The position numbers and the translations under genes were made by a program. The notes below the pieces were generated by a model, which did not search any database, was not told where the DNA came from, and saw only the letters and a program-made list of their open reading frames with translations. Below are positions 5,848-23,378 of a DNA stretch of 25,523 nt, in pieces. The DNA comes from a virus, in the IMG/VR virus record IMGVR_UViG_3300042862_000090, positions 1 to 25,523 of that record. One strand, written 5' to 3'. Position 1 is the stretch's first letter, and each line of letters begins with the position of its first letter.

Positions 5848-5868
5848 ACTTATTTGGTTTTTAGTTTG

Positions 5869-5943
5869 AGGTACAGATAGGATTCGAACCTATGGCTTTA
5901 CAGTTTTGCAGACTGTTGCTTTAGACCACTCAGCCACTGTACC
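5869..5943 (-). tRNA. tRNA-Cys (anticodon GCA)
   Basis: Read on the minus strand, the acceptor GGTACAG pairs with CTGTACC. The D arm is GCTGAGTGG...AAAGC, the anticodon arm ACAGT-CTGCAAA-ACTGT has GCA in the loop, and the T arm carries GGTTCGAATCC. Position 73 is U, as is usual for tRNA-Cys. CCA is not encoded. It heads the operon and begins about 10 nt after the -7 box of a consensus host promoter. Confidence 0.95.
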
Positions 5944-5953
5944 TTATTTTATA

Positions 5954-5984
5954 CAAATATAAACTTTTTTTATTTACAAACAAA
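5954..5984 (-). promoter_or_regulatory. Bacteroidota-consensus promoter of the tRNA-Cys operon
   Basis: On the minus strand TTTG (5981-5984) lies exactly 19 nt before TATATTTG (5954-5961). This is a full match to the TTTG/TAnnTTTG consensus of the Bacteroidota primary sigma factor. The tRNA begins 10 nt later. The upstream TTTG lies inside the T-run of the preceding operon's terminator. Confidence 0.8.
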
Positions 5985-6024: not shown

Positions 6025-6597
6025 TTAGCAAAAATTTTCATCAATACAAATATAATCTTTTTCTAATAACTTTAACTTATCAGATCTTTTTTTTATAATT
6101 TTTGCTGGAGTTCCTGCTATTATACTATAAGCTTCAAAACTCTTCATAATTAAAGAATTACTTCCTGCTGCCACTCCTTCTTGTAAATGTACACCTGGAA
6201 GTATAACACAACTTGCTCCAATTACAACATGGTTATCTAAAATTACAGGTTTAGAGGTTACGTTTCTTAAATTTATTGGAACTGTTGGATTGGTAAGAAA
6301 GTTTCCAGAGTAGTCATCTGTTGATGAGTATATACTCACGCGTGATGATAAACCAGAAAAATTTTTTAATGTAATTTTTGCAGCACCCACTAACAAACAA
6401 AAGCATCCAATATGTATATTGTTTCCTATGCTTATACCATCCTTTCCTGCAGATAGTACGCAAAAGTCATCTATCCTTACATTATCACCTATTTCAATAT
6501 TACTTGGGTTATACAGACTAGTTTTTTTTGATATAAGGACATTGGTCCCAAAACTCTTTAAACTAAGTTCTTTAAGCTCATTTTCAGTATAGTACAT
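6025..6597 (-). CDS. Left-handed beta-helix acyltransferase (WbbJ/maltose O-acetyltransferase type)
   Basis: This 190-residue protein consists mostly of hexapeptide repeats of the left-handed beta-helix fold. Examples are IEIGDNVRIDDFCVLSAG, ISIGNNIHIGCFCLLVGA, VILDNHVVIGASCVILPGVHL and VAAGSNSLIMKSF. It ends in AGTPAKIIKKR, a hallmark of sugar O- and N-acetyltransferases of the WbbJ/maltose acetyltransferase kind. These trimeric enzymes move an acetyl group from acetyl-CoA to a sugar. It is the last gene of a four-gene run with GT2, DegT and methyltransferase genes (gap 3 nt), so an amino sugar made by that run is a likely substrate. Confidence 0.85.
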   Translation of the reverse strand: MYYTENELKELSLKSFGTNVLISKKTSLYNPSNIEIGDNVRIDDFCVLSAGKDGISIGNNIHIGCFCLLVGAAKITLKNFSGLSSRVSIYSSTDDYSGNFLTNPTVPINLRNVTSKPVILDNHVVIGASCVILPGVHLQEGVAAGSNSLIMKSFEAYSIIAGTPAKIIKKRSDKLKLLEKDYICIDENFC

Positions 6598-6600
6598 AAT

Positions 6601-7413
6601 TTATTTCCAGTAATTCATAAATCCAGTACTGTAATGTAAATAATCAGTCTGGAATAATTTATTTATTGACTCTATATTAGACTTAAGATTTTCAGGTTCT
6701 TTTTTAAATAACACCCAGCATTTAGATGATGGACAATATATTGAACTAACGTAACCCCATTGCTTCATTAAAATATCCATACTCTTATTGGTATGTAATG
6801 CAGAATGGACAGGTGGTGTAATATAGAACCAGTTTGGATCATTAGGTATATTTTCACAAACTACTGTGTGTATTATCATTATCCCATCTTCAGTTACTAA
6901 ATTGTTTATATGATCAAGGTCTGCTCTTTTTCGTACATGCTCAAATAAAGCACTTGTAACAACCACATTTACTTTACTCAAGTTTTCCTCTTTAACGTAT
7001 TGAACAGTATCAGCAGTATTATCTGTAACATATGGATCATACACTGGTAATGATAAATCAAAATATTTTAAAAGTATCTTACTTAATGTACCATACCCAC
7101 CAGCATAGTCAAGCATATTAGTTTTAATAATATTGTTCTTCACTAAAATATTTATCATTGTTGCCTGCTCTATATAGGGTGGTTCATTTATATCTTCTCC
7201 AAGCATTTTATTTTCAAAGAGTGTGTGGAAATCAAAATTTAATTTACACCATGCATCATACTCCATTTTAAATACAGTATCAGAACAAGTAAATCCACAT
7301 GAGTTACATTTGTAGTAATGAGAACTATTTAAAAAATAATCATAGGGAGGTTGATACTCTTTAGTAAAAGCATATGTTATATCATTACCGCATATTATAC
7401 ATTGATCTTTCAT
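6601..7413 (-). CDS. SAM-dependent methyltransferase with N-terminal zinc-binding segment
   Basis: This 270-residue protein starts with two Cys pairs (C5-x2-C8, C36-x2-C39) as in zinc-binding sugar C-methyltransferases. A Rossmann SAM-binding motif I follows (MLDYAGGYGTLS, residues 100-111), with an acidic residue after the next strand (VYDPY), and LFEHVRKRADLDHI then sits where motif IV usually lies. The layout resembles methyltransferases of deoxysugar and O-antigen pathways, though the family's C-terminal domain is mostly missing (usual length about 400). I infer methylation of a sugar nucleotide or glycan. It lies between the aminotransferase (gap 1 nt) and the acyltransferase (gap 3 nt). 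Confidence 0.8.
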   Translation of the reverse strand: MKDQCIICGNDITYAFTKEYQPPYDYFLNSSHYYKCNSCGFTCSDTVFKMEYDAWCKLNFDFHTLFENKMLGEDINEPPYIEQATMINILVKNNIIKTNMLDYAGGYGTLSKILLKYFDLSLPVYDPYVTDNTADTVQYVKEENLSKVNVVVTSALFEHVRKRADLDHINNLVTEDGIMIIHTVVCENIPNDPNWFYITPPVHSALHTNKSMDILMKQWGYVSSIYCPSSKCWVLFKKEPENLKSNIESINKLFQTDYLHYSTGFMNYWK

Positions 7414-7414
7414 T

Positions 7415-8032
7415 TTACTGTGTATATATTTTAAATTGTGACAAATCTGGATATACTAGTTCTATATCTGGATTGTGTTTCTTTGTGCCATCTTGATTAT
7501 AGAATTGACCCATCAATTGTATACCTCTTGCGGCCAACTCTGGTATCATATAAAAGTTCCAACCAGTCATGGTAAATGTATCTTCATGATATGAACATTC
7601 ATTTCTTCCACTATATCTAGCTTTCTTAAACCATTCGTATGCTTCTTTATCATCCGTTAGTATTGCTCCACCTTTTGATAACTTTAAGTGTTTATGTGGA
7701 CCTGTAAAAGAAATGCACATGTGTGTACCTGGACTGTACATATCAGCAGTAAACCTTAAAGCTGAGTCCCAAACTTTTGTTGGCTTCAATTGGTACGCTC
7801 CTTTAAATGAACCTTCTATAAATTTAACTACCCCATTAGCATGCATTATCTCACATGGCACAGATGGATATGTTTGACTTGGGATTTCTATTTCTTTGCC
7901 TGATATGTTTTCATAATATAACGCTAAAAAAAGAGCATTGCTCAAACTGTCTATAGCCACCACATATGGTGCACTAGTATAGTCTGATAATACTTTTTCA
8001 AATTCCTTTGTAATATTATGTGGGTTTATCAT
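7415..8032 (-). CDS. Compact DegT/DnrJ/EryC1/StrS-type sugar aminotransferase
   Basis: This 205-residue protein matches the N-terminal PLP-binding half of DegT-family sugar aminotransferases. Visible parts are a DSLSNALFLAL helix in place of the usual cofactor-binding G-T-x-A stretch, the IPSQTYPSVPCEI strand, WDSALRF (D89, in place of EDAAQA) and SFTGPHKHLKLSKGGAILTDD, where K114 would bind PLP. SGRNE follows as in the family (GxN/RGR). The family is normally 360-400 residues; the C-terminal small domain is almost absent. This may be a minimal enzyme, a degenerate one, or one needing a partner. It overlaps the GT2 gene by 4 nt (ATGA). Confidence 0.75.
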   Translation of the reverse strand: MINPHNITKEFEKVLSDYTSAPYVVAIDSLSNALFLALYYENISGKEIEIPSQTYPSVPCEIMHANGVVKFIEGSFKGAYQLKPTKVWDSALRFTADMYSPGTHMCISFTGPHKHLKLSKGGAILTDDKEAYEWFKKARYSGRNECSYHEDTFTMTGWNFYMIPELAARGIQLMGQFYNQDGTKKHNPDIELVYPDLSQFKIYTQ

Positions 8033-8673
8033 ATAAGCTTTTGTAGTTTTTGAGTATCTCTGTCATATAAATCAGATGCCATTTCTGCAGGTATAGATAC
8101 CAAAAATTCTTTTATAAATTCTTCTTTACTGTAGAATCTTTTTGGGTAATGGAACATGGTAAAGTGATATCTATTTATTCTAACGTCACCTTCTGGGTTA
8201 ACTGTATGCGCCCCACCACTATAATTTATTTCTCCAATAGACTTTCTAAACATTAAAGATTTACAGTACCATGGATGTAATTTTCCATGTGTAAATTCCC
8301 TTGGGCCATTTTGTCCTTCTTGAACTACCATGTTATAACCTTTAAACTTAATTACGTCAAAATTTTCAATAGCATCAAGATCCTCCAAACTAATATTGAT
8401 CAATTCATCCTGGTCTACTACAATGATCCATTCTGCTTCTGATTCTTTCCAACAGTTATTTCTCAAGTATGTTCCAGAAATACCTTTTGGTTCTTCTAAT
8501 ATATAGTCTACAACATTACAACCACGGCTTCTGCAATAGTCTCCTGTTTCATCTGTAGAGTTATCATTATAAATATTGATTTTACATCCTGGAAATCTTT
8601 CTTGATAATGATCTAAGAACATTGGTAAGATATGCATCCCATTATAAGCTGGTACAAATATTTCTACTTTCAT
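8029..8673 (-). CDS. Family 2-like (GT-A fold) glycosyltransferase
   Basis: This 214-residue protein opens with VEIFVPAYNGMHILPMFLDHY and IYNDNSTDETGDYC, the nucleotide-sugar-binding start of GT-A glycosyltransferases. VVDQDE (residues 85-90) is the DxD-like metal site. There is no transmembrane segment, so it acts in the cytoplasm. It is the first gene of the sugar cassette, overlapping the aminotransferase by ATGA. A TATATTTG box lies only 4 nt before the ATG and has no -33 partner, so transcription may be leaderless or come from readthrough of the terminator at 8686-8732. The acceptor is unknown: a virion protein, a host glycan or DNA are all possible. Confidence 0.85.
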   Translation of the reverse strand: MKVEIFVPAYNGMHILPMFLDHYQERFPGCKINIYNDNSTDETGDYCRSRGCNVVDYILEEPKGISGTYLRNNCWKESEAEWIIVVDQDELINISLEDLDAIENFDVIKFKGYNMVVQEGQNGPREFTHGKLHPWYCKSLMFRKSIGEINYSGGAHTVNPEGDVRINRYHFTMFHYPKRFYSKEEFIKEFLVSIPAEMASDLYDRDTQKLQKLI

Positions 8674-8685
8674 AAAACAAATATA

Positions 8686-8855
8686 ATAAAAAAACCCAGG
8701 TAGTAATTCTTGATCAGAGAAACTTTCCTGGGGGTGTTACTGGTTATACATTTCTGCTTTCCCATTAACGGAGAGACCAAGCAGCAGATCTAACGGGATG
8801 CATATTTGGTACTGAGCCTGCAAATCCTATTCACAGGTCTAGCAAAAGACTAATC
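8686..8855 (-). ncRNA. Candidate structured RNA ending in a strong terminator
   Basis: This stretch has no open frame and is richer in G and C than its neighbours. On the minus strand it can form several hairpins in order: AGACC/GGTCT enclosing GGAT-TTG...CAAA...ATCC; CTGCTT/AAGCAG with an inner TCTCC/GGGA; and a final CCCAGG/CCTGGG stem (8695-8700 with 8727-8732) followed by TTTTTTTATT. A weak promoter-like pair (TTTA-N19-TTATTTTG) lies in the end of the lipoprotein gene. It could instead be a long structured 3'UTR of that gene. Confidence 0.45.
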
Positions 8856-9209
8856 TATACAAAATAATCTCTTTCTACTGTAGCTATAAATATTAAATTC
8901 ATTCACAGTATCTATCCAATATCCCAATGGGAAAGTGTCCTTGCAATAGAATGGATAGTCTGCCGTGTTATTATAGATAGGACTTGATACAGTATCCCAA
9001 TGATATGTATAAACATACCTAGGTCTAGTGTTGTCATACCCATCACCATTCCACCAACCTGGATCACTTTGAACATCAATAGAGTCCTTGTATCTTCTCT
9101 CCCACAGATACATTGCTTTACATGTACATGGCTCTGCATTAGGACCATACTCTTCCTTCTTACATCCAGTTAAGAAAATTGTTAATGCTAATAATAATAC
9201 TTTTTTCAT
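8850..9209 (-). CDS. Phage-encoded lipoprotein
   Basis: The 119-residue precursor begins MKKVLLLALTIFLTGCKKEE, a textbook lipoprotein signal peptide with lipobox LTGC, so Cys16 would be lipidated. The mature part has Cys residues at CTCK, FYCKD and near the C-terminus, and is rich in Tyr, Trp and Asp (YVYTYHWDTV, YPFYCKDTFPLGYW). I recognise no family. Phage lipoproteins made in the infected cell commonly block superinfection by binding the receptor (T5 Llp is an example), and that is my preferred guess. The gene stands alone between two candidate RNAs, with a 14-bp palindrome directly before its start. Confidence 0.75.
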   Translation of the reverse strand: MKKVLLLALTIFLTGCKKEEYGPNAEPCTCKAMYLWERRYKDSIDVQSDPGWWNGDGYDNTRPRYVYTYHWDTVSSPIYNNTADYPFYCKDTFPLGYWIDTVNEFNIYSYSRKRLFCID

Positions 9210-9217
9210 AATATTTA

Positions 9218-9231
9218 TACCTTTAAAGGTA
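9218..9231. promoter_or_regulatory. 14-bp palindrome upstream of the lipoprotein gene
   Basis: TACCTTTAAAGGTA is a perfect palindrome ending 8 bp before the lipoprotein ATG. Its inner TACCTTTA is one base off the TAnnTTTG -7 box on the minus strand. It may be an operator or translational hairpin; chance cannot be excluded in AT-rich DNA. Confidence 0.35.
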
Positions 9232-9284
9232 ACTACTTTTCAAAAACACTACATAATAGAGAATCAATATCCCCAATATGATAT

Positions 9285-9489
9285 AAAAACAGAGGCTCCC
9301 ACCTGCCTTACTCTGTCATGAGCTTATCTCTACAGTAACTCACCCGATGCCACGGATGCTTAACCACCCTGCATTCCCTCCTTCACAATGTTAAGTTGTC
9401 TTGTGAGCCAGTTGTTTTTACTTTCTTTAGGGAGAACTTGTAATGGGTATCCTAACGGTTTTATCCTATTAGCTTGTCTCCCGTCTTAT
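9285..9489 (-). ncRNA. Structured non-coding RNA of about 205 nt with own promoter and terminator
   Basis: A consensus host promoter lies at 9494-9524 and an intrinsic terminator at 9285-9315 (CAGAG/CTCTG with an inner AGGC/GCCT, then TTTTTATA). Between them is a GC-richer stretch with no credible minus-strand frame. Visible helices are GGGAGA/TCTCCC (9477-9482 with 9430-9435), TCACAA/TTGTGA (around 9384-9406), and GAG-TTA/TAA-CTC near 9320-9340. I do not recognise the family: it lacks the landmarks I know for 6S, tmRNA, RNase P, GOLLD or ROOL RNA. It lies upstream of the lipoprotein gene and may be an independent regulator. Confidence 0.65.
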
Positions 9490-9493
9490 ACCA

Positions 9494-9524
9494 CAAATAT
9501 ATATTATAATATGCATAACACAAA
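9494..9524 (-). promoter_or_regulatory. Bacteroidota-consensus promoter of the 205-nt RNA
   Basis: On the minus strand TTTG (9521-9524), a 19-nt spacer and TATATTTG (9494-9501) match the consensus exactly. Transcription should start near 9487-9490, just before the GGGAGA helix strand. Confidence 0.8.
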
Positions 9525-9647
9525 ATATAACTTACAAATGTATGCTATACTTTACATATTATACCAAATATACTTTACATAATAGTACTATATTGTAAAT
9601 TTTATTTAAGGTTATTCCCTGATGAAAATTATTTATTTTGTGCCATA

Positions 9648-10142
9648 TTATTTAATTTTTCCTAATTGTCTAAATACTATTGATATTCTTTTGTGTTCTA
9701 GTTTTTCTATGCTGTGTTTCCAATGTGTTCTGTATACACCTTTAAGCTGTATAATAGATCTTGCTGGTAAAGTTATAACTTCTCTTTTTGTTCCATATGT
9801 CAAAATAAGTTTTGCATCTGATAACAAACTCAATATGGTTATTACAGGTCCAGCATCTACATTATCTATATGCGGAACCATCTTGTTTCCTGGATAATAA
9901 GTGTTAACTGTTATATCTTCTGGTAAAGCATCTAGTATTTTTTTATCTATCAACCTATAACATAGATCTAGTAGATACTCAGGAATAGGATCTAACTTCT
10001 CATTACTATAAATAGAATTGCCATATCTTACTAGAGTTCTATCATTAGATACTTTGCTGTTTGCTTCAGCTTGTGCCAGAGACTCTAACAGTAAGAGTTC
10101 TTCTTCTATAGATATAACATTAAATTCTGGTGTTACTATCAT
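9648..10142 (-). CDS. AlkB-like 2-oxoglutarate/Fe(II) dioxygenase
   Basis: This 164-residue protein carries the complete 2OG-Fe(II) oxygenase signature: NTYYPGNKMVPHIDN with H91-x-D93, the distal H143 in WKHSI, and R152-x5-R158 (RISIVFR), the AlkB-type 2-oxoglutarate and substrate arginines. LDPIPEYLLDL and DITVNTYYPG are also typical. It is shorter than E. coli AlkB (216 residues). Family members remove methyl groups from DNA or RNA bases, or act on modified nucleotides. In this phage it may repair alkylated DNA or process a base modification. It is transcribed leftward from the divergent region, from a promoter overlapped by a palindrome. Confidence 0.85.
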   Translation of the reverse strand: MIVTPEFNVISIEEELLLLESLAQAEANSKVSNDRTLVRYGNSIYSNEKLDPIPEYLLDLCYRLIDKKILDALPEDITVNTYYPGNKMVPHIDNVDAGPVITILSLLSDAKLILTYGTKREVITLPARSIIQLKGVYRTHWKHSIEKLEHKRISIVFRQLGKIK

Positions 10143-10154
10143 ACTAAATAATTA

Positions 10155-10183
10155 TGTCACAAATATAGTAAACATTTGTGACA
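10155..10183. promoter_or_regulatory. 29-bp palindromic operator over the AlkB promoter
   Basis: TGTCACAAA and TTTGTGACA are perfect 9-bp inverted repeats separated by 11 bp, that is, about two helical turns centre to centre. The left arm overlaps the minus-strand -7 box TATATTTG (10160-10167), which lies 17 nt before the AlkB ATG. This is the geometry of a dimeric repressor or activator site. No TTTG sits at -33, which would suit an activator-dependent or tightly regulated promoter. Confidence 0.6.
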
Positions 10184-10405
10184 GTTTATCCCCGGTCTAT
10201 TTTACTAAGTTCATGTACCCCAGGGGTATAACTAGATGGGGAAATTACGGGATATGGGTTTATAATATGTAAGGGATTGTGAAGGGGCCTCCCTACAACA
10301 CCCCCCGGGGCCTGGCCGATTGGGGGGTACCCCTATGACTCTGAGGGCATGAATCTCATACTAGATAAAAATAAAAACTTTTTATTACTGTGGAAAAAAG
10401 GTTGC
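10184..10405. other. Divergent intergenic region with GC-rich island, possible origin
   Basis: I see no gene in these roughly 220 bases. They contain G and C homopolymer tracts unlike the rest of the window. There are palindromes TACCCCAGGGGTA (10216-10228), CCCCGGGG (10303-10310) and GGGGTACCCC (10324-10333). ACCCCCC (10300-10306) can pair with GGGGGGT (10322-10328), and AGGG with CCCT around 10283-10294. Four G-runs at 10223-10258 (loops of 11, 7 and 4 nt) could form a G-quadruplex. An AT-only inverted repeat (AATAAAAA/TTTTTATT, 10370-10388) follows. The position between divergent gene blocks suits a replication origin; this is inference. Confidence 0.35.
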
Positions 10406-10418
10406 CGCTTGTAACTGA
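10406..10418 (+). promoter_or_regulatory. GCCGCTTNNAACT element 1
   Basis: The sequence is GCCGCTTGTAACT, one of five same-strand copies in 10406-12112. It precedes a roughly 95-nt RNA candidate that ends at the terminator at 10494-10523. I infer a phage promoter core. Confidence 0.45.
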
Positions 10419-10424
10419 TCTTAT

Positions 10425-10523
10425 GTGAAAAGTGATGCATCTCACTGACCCAACATATGGAAAATGTGCTAGCTACTGGTGAACACAAGATGTGAACAGA
10501 GAGAAATCTCTGTTCTTTTTTTT
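10425..10523 (+). ncRNA. Short structured RNA with strong terminator
   Basis: This stretch has no open frame. Small hairpins GTGA/TCAC (near 10434), ACAT/ATGT (near 10453) and CACA/TGTG (near 10483) are followed by a textbook terminator. That terminator is a 9-bp stem, GAACAGAGA with TCTCTGTTC, closed by a GAAA tetraloop and followed by eight T. The repeat element at 10406 would place the start about 10425-10435. Exact ends are uncertain, and I recognise no known RNA family. Confidence 0.5.
10494..10523 (+). terminator. Rho-independent terminator with GNRA loop
   Basis: The perfect 9-bp stem (10494-10502 with 10507-10515) has loop GAAA and is followed by TTTTTTTT. No protein gene lies upstream on this strand, which argues that it ends a non-coding transcript. 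Confidence 0.9.
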
Positions 10524-10538
10524 AACCACAATGCTTAG

Positions 10539-10551
10539 GCCGCTTTTAACT
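10539..10551 (+). promoter_or_regulatory. GCCGCTTNNAACT element 2
   Basis: The sequence is GCCGCTTTTAACT inside CTTAGGCCGCTTTTAACTTA, a 20-mer identical to copy 3 at 11144-11163. It lies 16 nt after a terminator and 14 nt before the first stem of the next RNA. Confidence 0.5.
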
Positions 10552-10559
10552 TAGTTTGA

Positions 10560-10672
10560 TTATTGATAAGTTATGTCCCAACACGGAAGTGAGACATAGT
10601 TGAGTTACAAGTCCTGGGACTTTTAGGCAGCTAGGAGAGGGAATGTACGCCCTTGGCATAACTTATCTTTTT
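10560..10672 (+). ncRNA. Structured RNA closed by an 11-bp stem, ending in a T-run
   Basis: An 11-bp perfect stem, GATAAGTTATG (10565-10575) with CATAACTTATC (10657-10667), encloses about 80 nt and is directly followed by TTTTT. Inside are TCCCA/TGGGA (10576-10580 with 10615-10619), containing a CAC-GGAA-GTG mini-hairpin, and AGGG/CCCT (10638-10641 with 10650-10653). Together they make a three-way-junction-like fold. No frame runs through it. It may be a free RNA of about 110 nt or a leader that controls the gene at 10698. Confidence 0.6.
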
Positions 10673-10697
10673 ACTAACTTAATTAAACTATACTATT

Positions 10698-22960: not shown

Positions 22961-23185
22961 ATGGCTGATATATCCATGTGTTCAGGACAAGATTGTCCGA
23001 TTAAAGAAAAATGTTATAGGTTTACAGCTCCTAAAAGTCTTATAGCACAAAGTTATTTTGCAGAAGCTCCGGGTAAAACAGAAGATGGTAAATTTACTTG
23101 TGAAATGTACTGGGGTGATAATAATGAAGCTGTATGGAATCAACTAAAAGATATAACTAATGGGAAAGATAACACTGACATTTGA
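22961..23185 (+). CDS. Cys-rich small conserved phage protein
   Basis: This 74-residue protein begins MADISMCSGQDCPIKEKCYR and has a fourth Cys in GKFTCEMYW, giving CxxxxC-x5-C plus a distal Cys, consistent with a small zinc or disulfide site. I recall the MCS..DCP...CYR(F/Y)TA opening in many Bacteroidota phage genes, without known function. It overlaps the next gene by 26 nt. Confidence 0.75.
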   Translation: MADISMCSGQDCPIKEKCYRFTAPKSLIAQSYFAEAPGKTEDGKFTCEMYWGDNNEAVWNQLKDITNGKDNTDI

Positions 23186-23378
23186 TTCTAATGAAGAAGC
23201 AGAAGAAGCTAGAACAGCTTTGGATGCTGGTAGATGGAAGATATTAGCTTGGGATTTAGATCAATATCTAAGAGGCAAAATTAAATATTGTCCAGATAAT
23301 GAAGATCCTGCAGCTTATGAGACAGTCAGAGAAAAACTTAGAGATATATTAGAAGAGTATAATTTAAACCTAGAGTAA
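23160..23378 (+). CDS. Conserved small phage protein
   Basis: This 72-residue protein has an alpha/beta start (MGKITLTFDSNEEAEEARTA) with WKILAWDLDQYLRGKIKY in the middle and a closing helix (YETVREKLRDILEEYNLNLE). The AWDLDQ(Y/W)LR..IKY stretch is common to small phage proteins annotated as hypothetical. The start lies within the preceding gene. It is probably cytoplasmic; the function is unknown. Confidence 0.75.
   Translation: MGKITLTFDSNEEAEEARTALDAGRWKILAWDLDQYLRGKIKYCPDNEDPAAYETVREKLRDILEEYNLNLE

Follow-up and report, generated by a model that had tools for sequence, protein, structure and literature searches.

A compact covarying RNA family of phage tRNA islands with a conserved partner RNA

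A conserved structured RNA core of about 130 nt, which we call RNA1, is encoded on the minus strand of the phage DNA analyzed here (the window, a complete IMG/VR virus record of 25.5 kb and 31% GC). It occupies positions 9283..9416 and scores 135.8 bits against our covariance model, R1. Comparison of its homologues indicates that RNA1 is real as a folded RNA, with a shape kept by evolution, and that it is a new family among the structured RNAs of phage tRNA islands, one that could figure in an unpublished or non-open list. The best explanation, to which we assign a probability of roughly 0.6, is that RNA1 would be a trans-acting stable structural RNA, made or processed with tRNAs and bound to a partner.

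RNA1 is preceded in the window by a Bacteroidota-type promoter (9494..9524, minus strand). The pattern scan located a -33 TTTG (9521-9524), a 19-nt spacer, and the -7 box TATATTTG (9494-9501), exactly the host promoter that an earlier note, made from the sequence alone, had described. The published Bacteroidetes consensus is TTTG/TANNTTTG, the -7 box having its G at position -5 (PMC6847099), which places the predicted +1 at about 9489. The window contains TTTG-N19-TANNTTTG two times, where shuffles predict 0.26, and 3 of 100 shuffles reach two; the second site (5954-5984) lies directly before a tRNA-Cys gene. The relatives L004-L008 keep the -7 box with a spacer of 20. A ~207-nt noncoding transcript produced from a host-type promoter (window 9489-9283, minus strand) is thus supported at the sequence level.

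The stretch is richer in GC than the window (44% vs 31%) and carries no minus-strand ORF of at least 40 aa, as the earlier note had stated. Two plus-strand ORFs, at 9088-9321 and 9388-9582, overlap it and are not conserved. A plus-strand coding signal in relatives, which would have spoken against an RNA, does not appear: no frame is open in all RNA1 homologues, stops fall in nearly all frames, and indels of 1-2 nt occur. At the 3' end, an inverted repeat (9288-9294/9311-9317) is followed by TTTTTATA, with a U-run at 9285-9289, and to this extent the proposed intrinsic terminator holds. The same hairpin, however, is P5, an integral covarying helix that is retained in members without the U-run (L126, L141). 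Because P5 covaries also where the U-run is missing, we assign it to the RNA fold; it is probably a structural part of RNA1 first and also a terminator in the window lineage. A generic terminator scan missed this hairpin, whose loop is too long for the scan.

The transcript had been described as a single well-bounded RNA of 205 nt. A promoter-driven, noncoding, structured RNA of about that length (~207 nt) is consistent with our data, but it is built from two modules, RNA0 and RNA1. RNA0 (9430..9482, minus strand) is a 5' stem-loop, GGGAGAC...ACCGUUAGGAU...GUUCUCCC, conserved in L004-L008 and L103, and its inner stem shows compensating variants (UAAUAGG/CCUAUUA, UAAUGGG/CCCAUUA, and GUUGGGA/UCCCAAC). 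In L126, a tRNA-Lys gene separates RNA0 from RNA1, and L009, L093, and L139 have RNA1 with RNA0 missing ahead of it. The RNA0 loop ACCGUUAGGAU is similar to the hairpin loop (CCGUUAGAU) of RNA2, a second RNA described below, which suggests that the same partner may bind both.

The RNA stretch is flanked by a small lipoprotein-like gene (8850-9209) and, on the other side, by a 2OG-Fe(II) oxygenase gene (9648-10142, Pfam PF13532). The oxygenase protein, used as a query, found 42 viral loci; eight of them contain the RNA, and two of these are identical to the window there. In several of the other RNA-carrying loci the oxygenase lies ~0.8-1.3 kb away from the RNA, indicating that the two move independently. 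Conserved-block DNA patterns extended this set, and homologues are now found in at least 21 IMG/VR contigs besides the window. Two further DNA patterns added no new members; because independent patterns gave the same contigs, we judge the family to be nearly complete in IMG/VR at the present level of divergence. A 66.7-kb contig (G009) holds two diverged copies, one per contig end (L159:289-420(-) and L160:19881-20000(-)). Each copy in G009 is followed by the same small gene, duplicated, whose product resembles the protein of window 23160-23378(+).

Model R1 recovers every member at 133-151 bits, except for a truncated copy, the second in its contig, at 111; it gives no convincing matches beyond the known members. 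Two weak matches, L158 9250-9366 (15.4 bits), which looks coding, and L228 (9.5 bits), were taken as chance. Two near-diagnostic patterns, which match nearly all members, had no match in ~85,000 bacterial and archaeal genomes, so prophages give no host assignment; RNA1 is so far phage-only in sequence searches and apparently absent from bacteria. Searches by blastn of 50,697 phage records with three RNA1 queries and one RNA2 query returned short chance matches only, and R1 found nothing in T4, Lak-A2, four other huge phages, and FpV4, a set without a positive control. Rfam, as the earlier note had anticipated, gave no match for the window RNA stretch or for RNA1, with all Rfam 15 families below the gathering score. 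ARAGORN and Rfam found no tRNA or tmRNA at 9283-9489, and the tRNA-like acceptor and T arm are not present there.

The stretch had also been called highly paired, and folding energy alone does not bear this out. The window RNA has a z of -0.59, with 53 of 200 shuffles equally or more stable, and the z values of the individual homologues are near 0. Single-sequence folding of either strand was not better than shuffles and was not used as evidence; since folding energy is not significant, the case for the RNA was made by comparison. The structure was written by hand on 16 distinct sequences, 72-99% identical, and consists of P1, P2, P3 (outer and inner), P4, P5, and a loop-loop pairing. In the five-helix fold 97.4% of cells are paired, with two-sided changes in 15 pairs and 56 cells. 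None of 500 shuffles reached the observed level of covariation, and structures slid by 1-3 columns fell to 34-46%. The covariation test on related phages that the earlier note had suggested is thus positive, and this comparative evidence is decisive for the pairing.

All helices are given on the minus strand. P1 and P2 together span 9378..9407. P1 (CUC/GAG, 9405-9407/9378-9380) is invariant and so putative, while P2 (9396-9400/9382-9388), closed by the loop CUUAAC (9390-9395), is 93.8% paired with three two-sided pairs. P3 spans 9347..9374, and its outer part (9371-9374/9347-9350) is 100% paired and its inner part (9365-9369/9354-9358) 97% paired, each with two two-sided pairs; the loop is GUUAAG (9359-9364). 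The P4 hairpin (9337-9342/9319-9324, within 9319..9342) has two-sided changes in four of its six pairs, including the compensatory series GAG/CUC to AGA/UCU to GCA/UGC. P5 (9311-9317/9288-9294, within 9288..9317) has four two-sided pairs, the variants ACAGAG/CUCUGU, ACAAGAG/CUCUUGU, and AUACAAG/CUUGUAU, and a near-invariant loop, AAG-NN-AGGUGGGAG. In the alignment, P2, P3, P4, and P5 are each shown to be backed by two-sided changes.

The P2 loop CUUAAC and the P3 loop GUUAAG are perfectly complementary, nearly invariant, and carried by adjacent hairpins. The six loop-loop base pairs are formed in 16 of 16 sequences (100% paired), the single variant type being U-A to U-G in three of them. A P2/P3 loop-loop pseudoknot is therefore likely; because the six pairs are almost invariant, this kissing interaction rests on complementarity, not covariation. 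A nested fold in which CUUAAC/GUUAAG forms an ordinary stem is the lowest-energy structure in a few homologues and was rejected on pair counts: the two-hairpin model has seven two-sided pairs and 96.6% pairing, against two and 86.5% for the nested alternative with the same loop pairing. RNA1 also contains the invariant unpaired stretches ACUGGCUC, GAGGGA, and AGGUGGGAG. The P5 loop would form only ~5 bp with the anti-Shine-Dalgarno sequence. Short motif resemblances to a group I intron, 6S RNA, tmRNA, and an RNase P remnant were dismissed for the lack of an Rfam match and the wrong number of helices.

The neighborhood of RNA1 was surveyed for 23 copies. Of these, 15 have a tRNA on the same strand no more than 1 kb away, against 2.0 expected. 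The arrangement is tightest in L126, where tRNA-Lys is followed after 7 nt by RNA1 and, 2 nt further, by tRNA-Met; the full order is tRNA-Leu-like shell, RNA0, tRNA-Lys, RNA1, tRNA-Met, linker, RNA2, such that processing at the tRNA ends would release RNA1. In L054, RNA1 abuts tRNA-Trp. L139 and L140 have no tRNA close to RNA1, and in L140 a -7 box, TACTTTTG, ends 6 nt before the RNA1 core, with a -7 box of its own for RNA2. The tRNA of the window, tRNA-Cys(GCA) (5868-5943, minus strand; ARAGORN and Rfam), spans 5868..5984(-) together with its promoter, which the pattern scan located and which has the same architecture as that of the RNA stretch. This tRNA is 3.5 kb from RNA1, and the few-nt placement in a tRNA cluster is therefore a feature of other members and not of the window itself. 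A 2.6-kb insert (6055-8680) with glycosyltransferase, truncated DegT-like aminotransferase, and methyltransferase genes separates RNA2 from tRNA-Cys; it is missing from L004, L005, and L006, where the tRNA is ~0.9 kb after RNA1. The sequence downstream of RNA1 differs by member (the lipoprotein gene, tRNA-Met 2 nt away, RNA2, or the duplicated small gene), and such varied neighbors around a retained RNA1 suggest action in trans rather than in cis.

Other noncoding elements were seen in the same regions. The tRNA-Leu-like shells (AGTCAGGTGGCGGAAT...GGTTCGAATCCTGTCCTGACTA) have a large insert that replaces the normal anticodon arm and occur at L142:10206-10312(-) and 9201-9325(-) and in L126 near 640-800; those of L142 score as tRNA in Rfam (38 bits) and are possibly non-decoding tRNA-like RNAs. 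The window contains a GC-rich noncoding stretch at 10143-10680, parts of which are conserved among relatives, and a strong plus-strand hairpin followed by T8 at 10494-10523.

RNA1 was introduced as an orphan RNA, a description that no longer applies, as it usually has tRNA neighbors and a conserved partner RNA. This partner, RNA2 (approximately 8684..8840, minus strand; nhmmer and RNAalifold), follows RNA1 co-directionally for 20 of the 23 copies in nhmmer searches, 165-1430 nt further downstream; further examples are L054:9605-9777, L142:8877-8710, and L140:6424-6598, among others. In the RNAalifold consensus of 17 RNA2 sequences, 13 of 31 predicted pairs show two-sided changes. Its 3' hairpin, CCCCAGG...CCUGGGUUUUUUU, is assigned from sequence as a terminator, and the RNA2 loop carries the invariant palindrome UGAUCA. 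The Rfam searches made gave no match for RNA2. Full-length matches were present in 59 of 107 further phage loci recruited by the RNA2 5' hairpin, and 71 RNA2-pattern loci lack RNA1.

A 19-mer, GCAT[AC]CCGT[AT]AGATCTGCT, is a recurrent loop: at least 119 viral stretches (L199-L305; for example L220:2974, L223:2596(-), L263:4288, and L302:53(-)) carry it in a hairpin. It is often found in a stem-loop followed by a U-run, or in an element between tRNAs. The loop is kept while the stem sequences vary, and it resembles a widespread motif for protein binding or 3D structure. L302:780-1248(-) encodes a phage tmRNA (RF00023, 54 bits) near an RNA2-type hairpin.

The phages that carry RNA1 are diverse. 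The SNF2-type helicase of the window is nearest to Flavobacterium phage proteins (31%); the A-type DNA polymerase of a 114-kb relative is distant from those of named phages; and the T4-like portal of G003, a 100-kb contig, is closest to those of 460-735-kb phages and Lak phages. These differing polymerase and portal affinities indicate that RNA1 crosses unrelated phage backbones. The host is probably a member of the Bacteroidota, as suggested by the promoters and the helicase neighbors.

Among known systems, T4 RNAs C and D (species 1 and 2) are phage structured RNAs of ~120-140 nt that lie in a tRNA cluster with few-nt spacers (AF158101 annotation), and RNA1 is placed in the same manner in L126 and L054. 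The T4 genome (AF158101) matches RNA1 neither in sequence nor with the R1 covariance model, and T4 rnaC has a tRNA-like T-arm (GGTTCGAATCCC) that RNA1 lacks. GOLLD and ROOL are ornate phage and prophage RNAs of unknown function that are located near tRNA islands and contain pseudoknots and kissing loops; each is a single RNA of far greater size, over 800 nt in many GOLLD members (PMC12286853). RNA1 is likewise phage-encoded near tRNA islands and shares the loop-loop principle, to the extent that its loops are complementary, which by sequence fits pairing within or between molecules; it differs in being modular and only ~130 nt long. A cmscan of four loci at E-values up to 5-10 gave no GOLLD or ROOL match.

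The phi29 pRNA is a phage RNA of ~120-170 nt with two hairpins whose complementary loops can pair within or between molecules. Its likeness to RNA1 is confined to this loop complementarity: the loops differ, Rfam Phage_pRNA is not matched, and the RNA1 relatives are not phi29-like, being phages of 100-115 kb that encode an A-type DNA polymerase or a T4-like portal. Freshwater-1 RNA (RF02979), a small structured RNA from freshwater metagenomes, has a 62-nt model with a sequence and fold unlike those of RNA1; it is present in the same tRNA island as RNA1 in L142, as a separate gene ~0.9 kb upstream, and in phage contigs with the RNA2 hairpin motif (L229, L235). In the purine riboswitch, two side-by-side hairpins are joined by loop-loop base pairing. 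The resemblance to RNA1 is one of architecture only, as RNA1 has no established closing helix, regulated gene, or Rfam match. An RNA polymerase decoy of the 6S type, one of the roles raised in the earlier note, is not supported by the predicted fold: 6S RNA is a single long hairpin that has a large bulge at its center, whereas RNA1 has four separate hairpins and no Rfam match.

We propose that the host-type promoter would yield a ~207-nt transcript made of the RNA0 hairpin and the compact ~130-nt RNA1, in which P2 and P3 may pack side by side through the 6-bp kissing loop. RNA1 would be made together with tRNAs and RNA2, in several relatives presumably being cut out with them, and would then be a stable structural RNA working in trans. 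The single-stranded surfaces that do not vary would most likely hold a macromolecular partner, which may be a protein, the ribosome, or RNA2 or RNA1 itself in a complex. We favor a trans-acting RNA with a partner because what lies downstream varies, RNA1 can sit between tRNAs, L140 gives it a standalone promoter, and several unpaired stretches are invariant. By analogy, RNA1 most likely works in a manner like that proposed for T4 RNAs C and D, GOLLD, and ROOL.

RNA1 could instead be a cis-acting element of a tRNA/RNA operon, that is, not a free RNA but a leader, attenuator, or processing signal through which neighboring transcripts are terminated or matured. In the window group U5 comes right after the terminator-like P5, GGCUC at the 5' end could base-pair with GAGCC at the edge of the P5 loop and stem (a pairing used by the lowest-energy fold of the window RNA), and RNA2 is close downstream. 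We nevertheless regard this as unlikely, if the foremost of the alternatives: several members lack the U-run and have a covarying P5 all the same, no downstream gene is common to the members, the invariant nucleotides are spread throughout RNA1 and not just near P5, and in L140 RNA1 and RNA2 each have their own -7 box. Slightly less probable is a single large ornate RNA, split by intervening tRNAs and genes, whose parts would be RNA0, RNA1, the RNA1-RNA2 linker, and RNA2 and would come together in trans, or as oligomers, via loop-loop contacts. The co-directional order is kept, many contigs have an RNA1-RNA2 spacing of just 165-290 nt in which the linkers are structured, and the complementary RNA1 loops and the RNA2 palindrome offer contacts; GOLLD and ROOL assemble likewise near tRNA islands (PMC12286853). 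RNA1 and RNA2, with or without RNA0, might on this model form an RNA-only or RNA-rich phage complex through CUUAAC/GUUAAG and UGAUCA contacts, as a split modular counterpart of the GOLLD/ROOL cages with pieces separately transcribed or tRNA-released, an idea to which we give the same low weight. Both the widespread occurrence of RNA2 without RNA1 and the separate promoters of the modules in L140 speak against a split large RNA.

A self-cleaving ribozyme or a metabolite-binding riboswitch, in which the parallel loop-paired hairpins and the conserved junction nucleotides would form a pocket for catalysis or ligand binding in an architecture like that of the purine riboswitch, ranks lower again. 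It would account for neighboring hairpins that are alike in length and complementary in their loops, and for the invariant joining segments, such invariant unpaired stretches being typical of both classes. However, no Rfam ribozyme or riboswitch family was matched, RNA1 has no fixed position before one gene class, and self-cleavage is unnecessary for maturation, as the ends are already set by tRNAs or promoters. That the stretch is unconserved, non-functional intergenic DNA with promoter-like and terminator-like sequences has a negligible probability. A folding energy no more favorable than that of shuffled sequence would fit this reading, which is refuted by the covariation over 16 sequences and by the conservation in unrelated phages.

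Phage tRNA islands have long been known for stable RNAs of unknown function, such as T4 RNAs C and D, and for the giant ornate RNAs GOLLD and ROOL. RNA1 adds a small family to these, one that covaries strongly, probably forms a pseudoknot, and is accompanied by a conserved partner RNA; its members occur in unrelated phages. With only ~130 nt, RNA1 lends itself to rapid structure determination, pull-down, and deletion, and this small size would make a general question testable, namely what use phages make of the non-tRNA RNAs in their tRNA islands.
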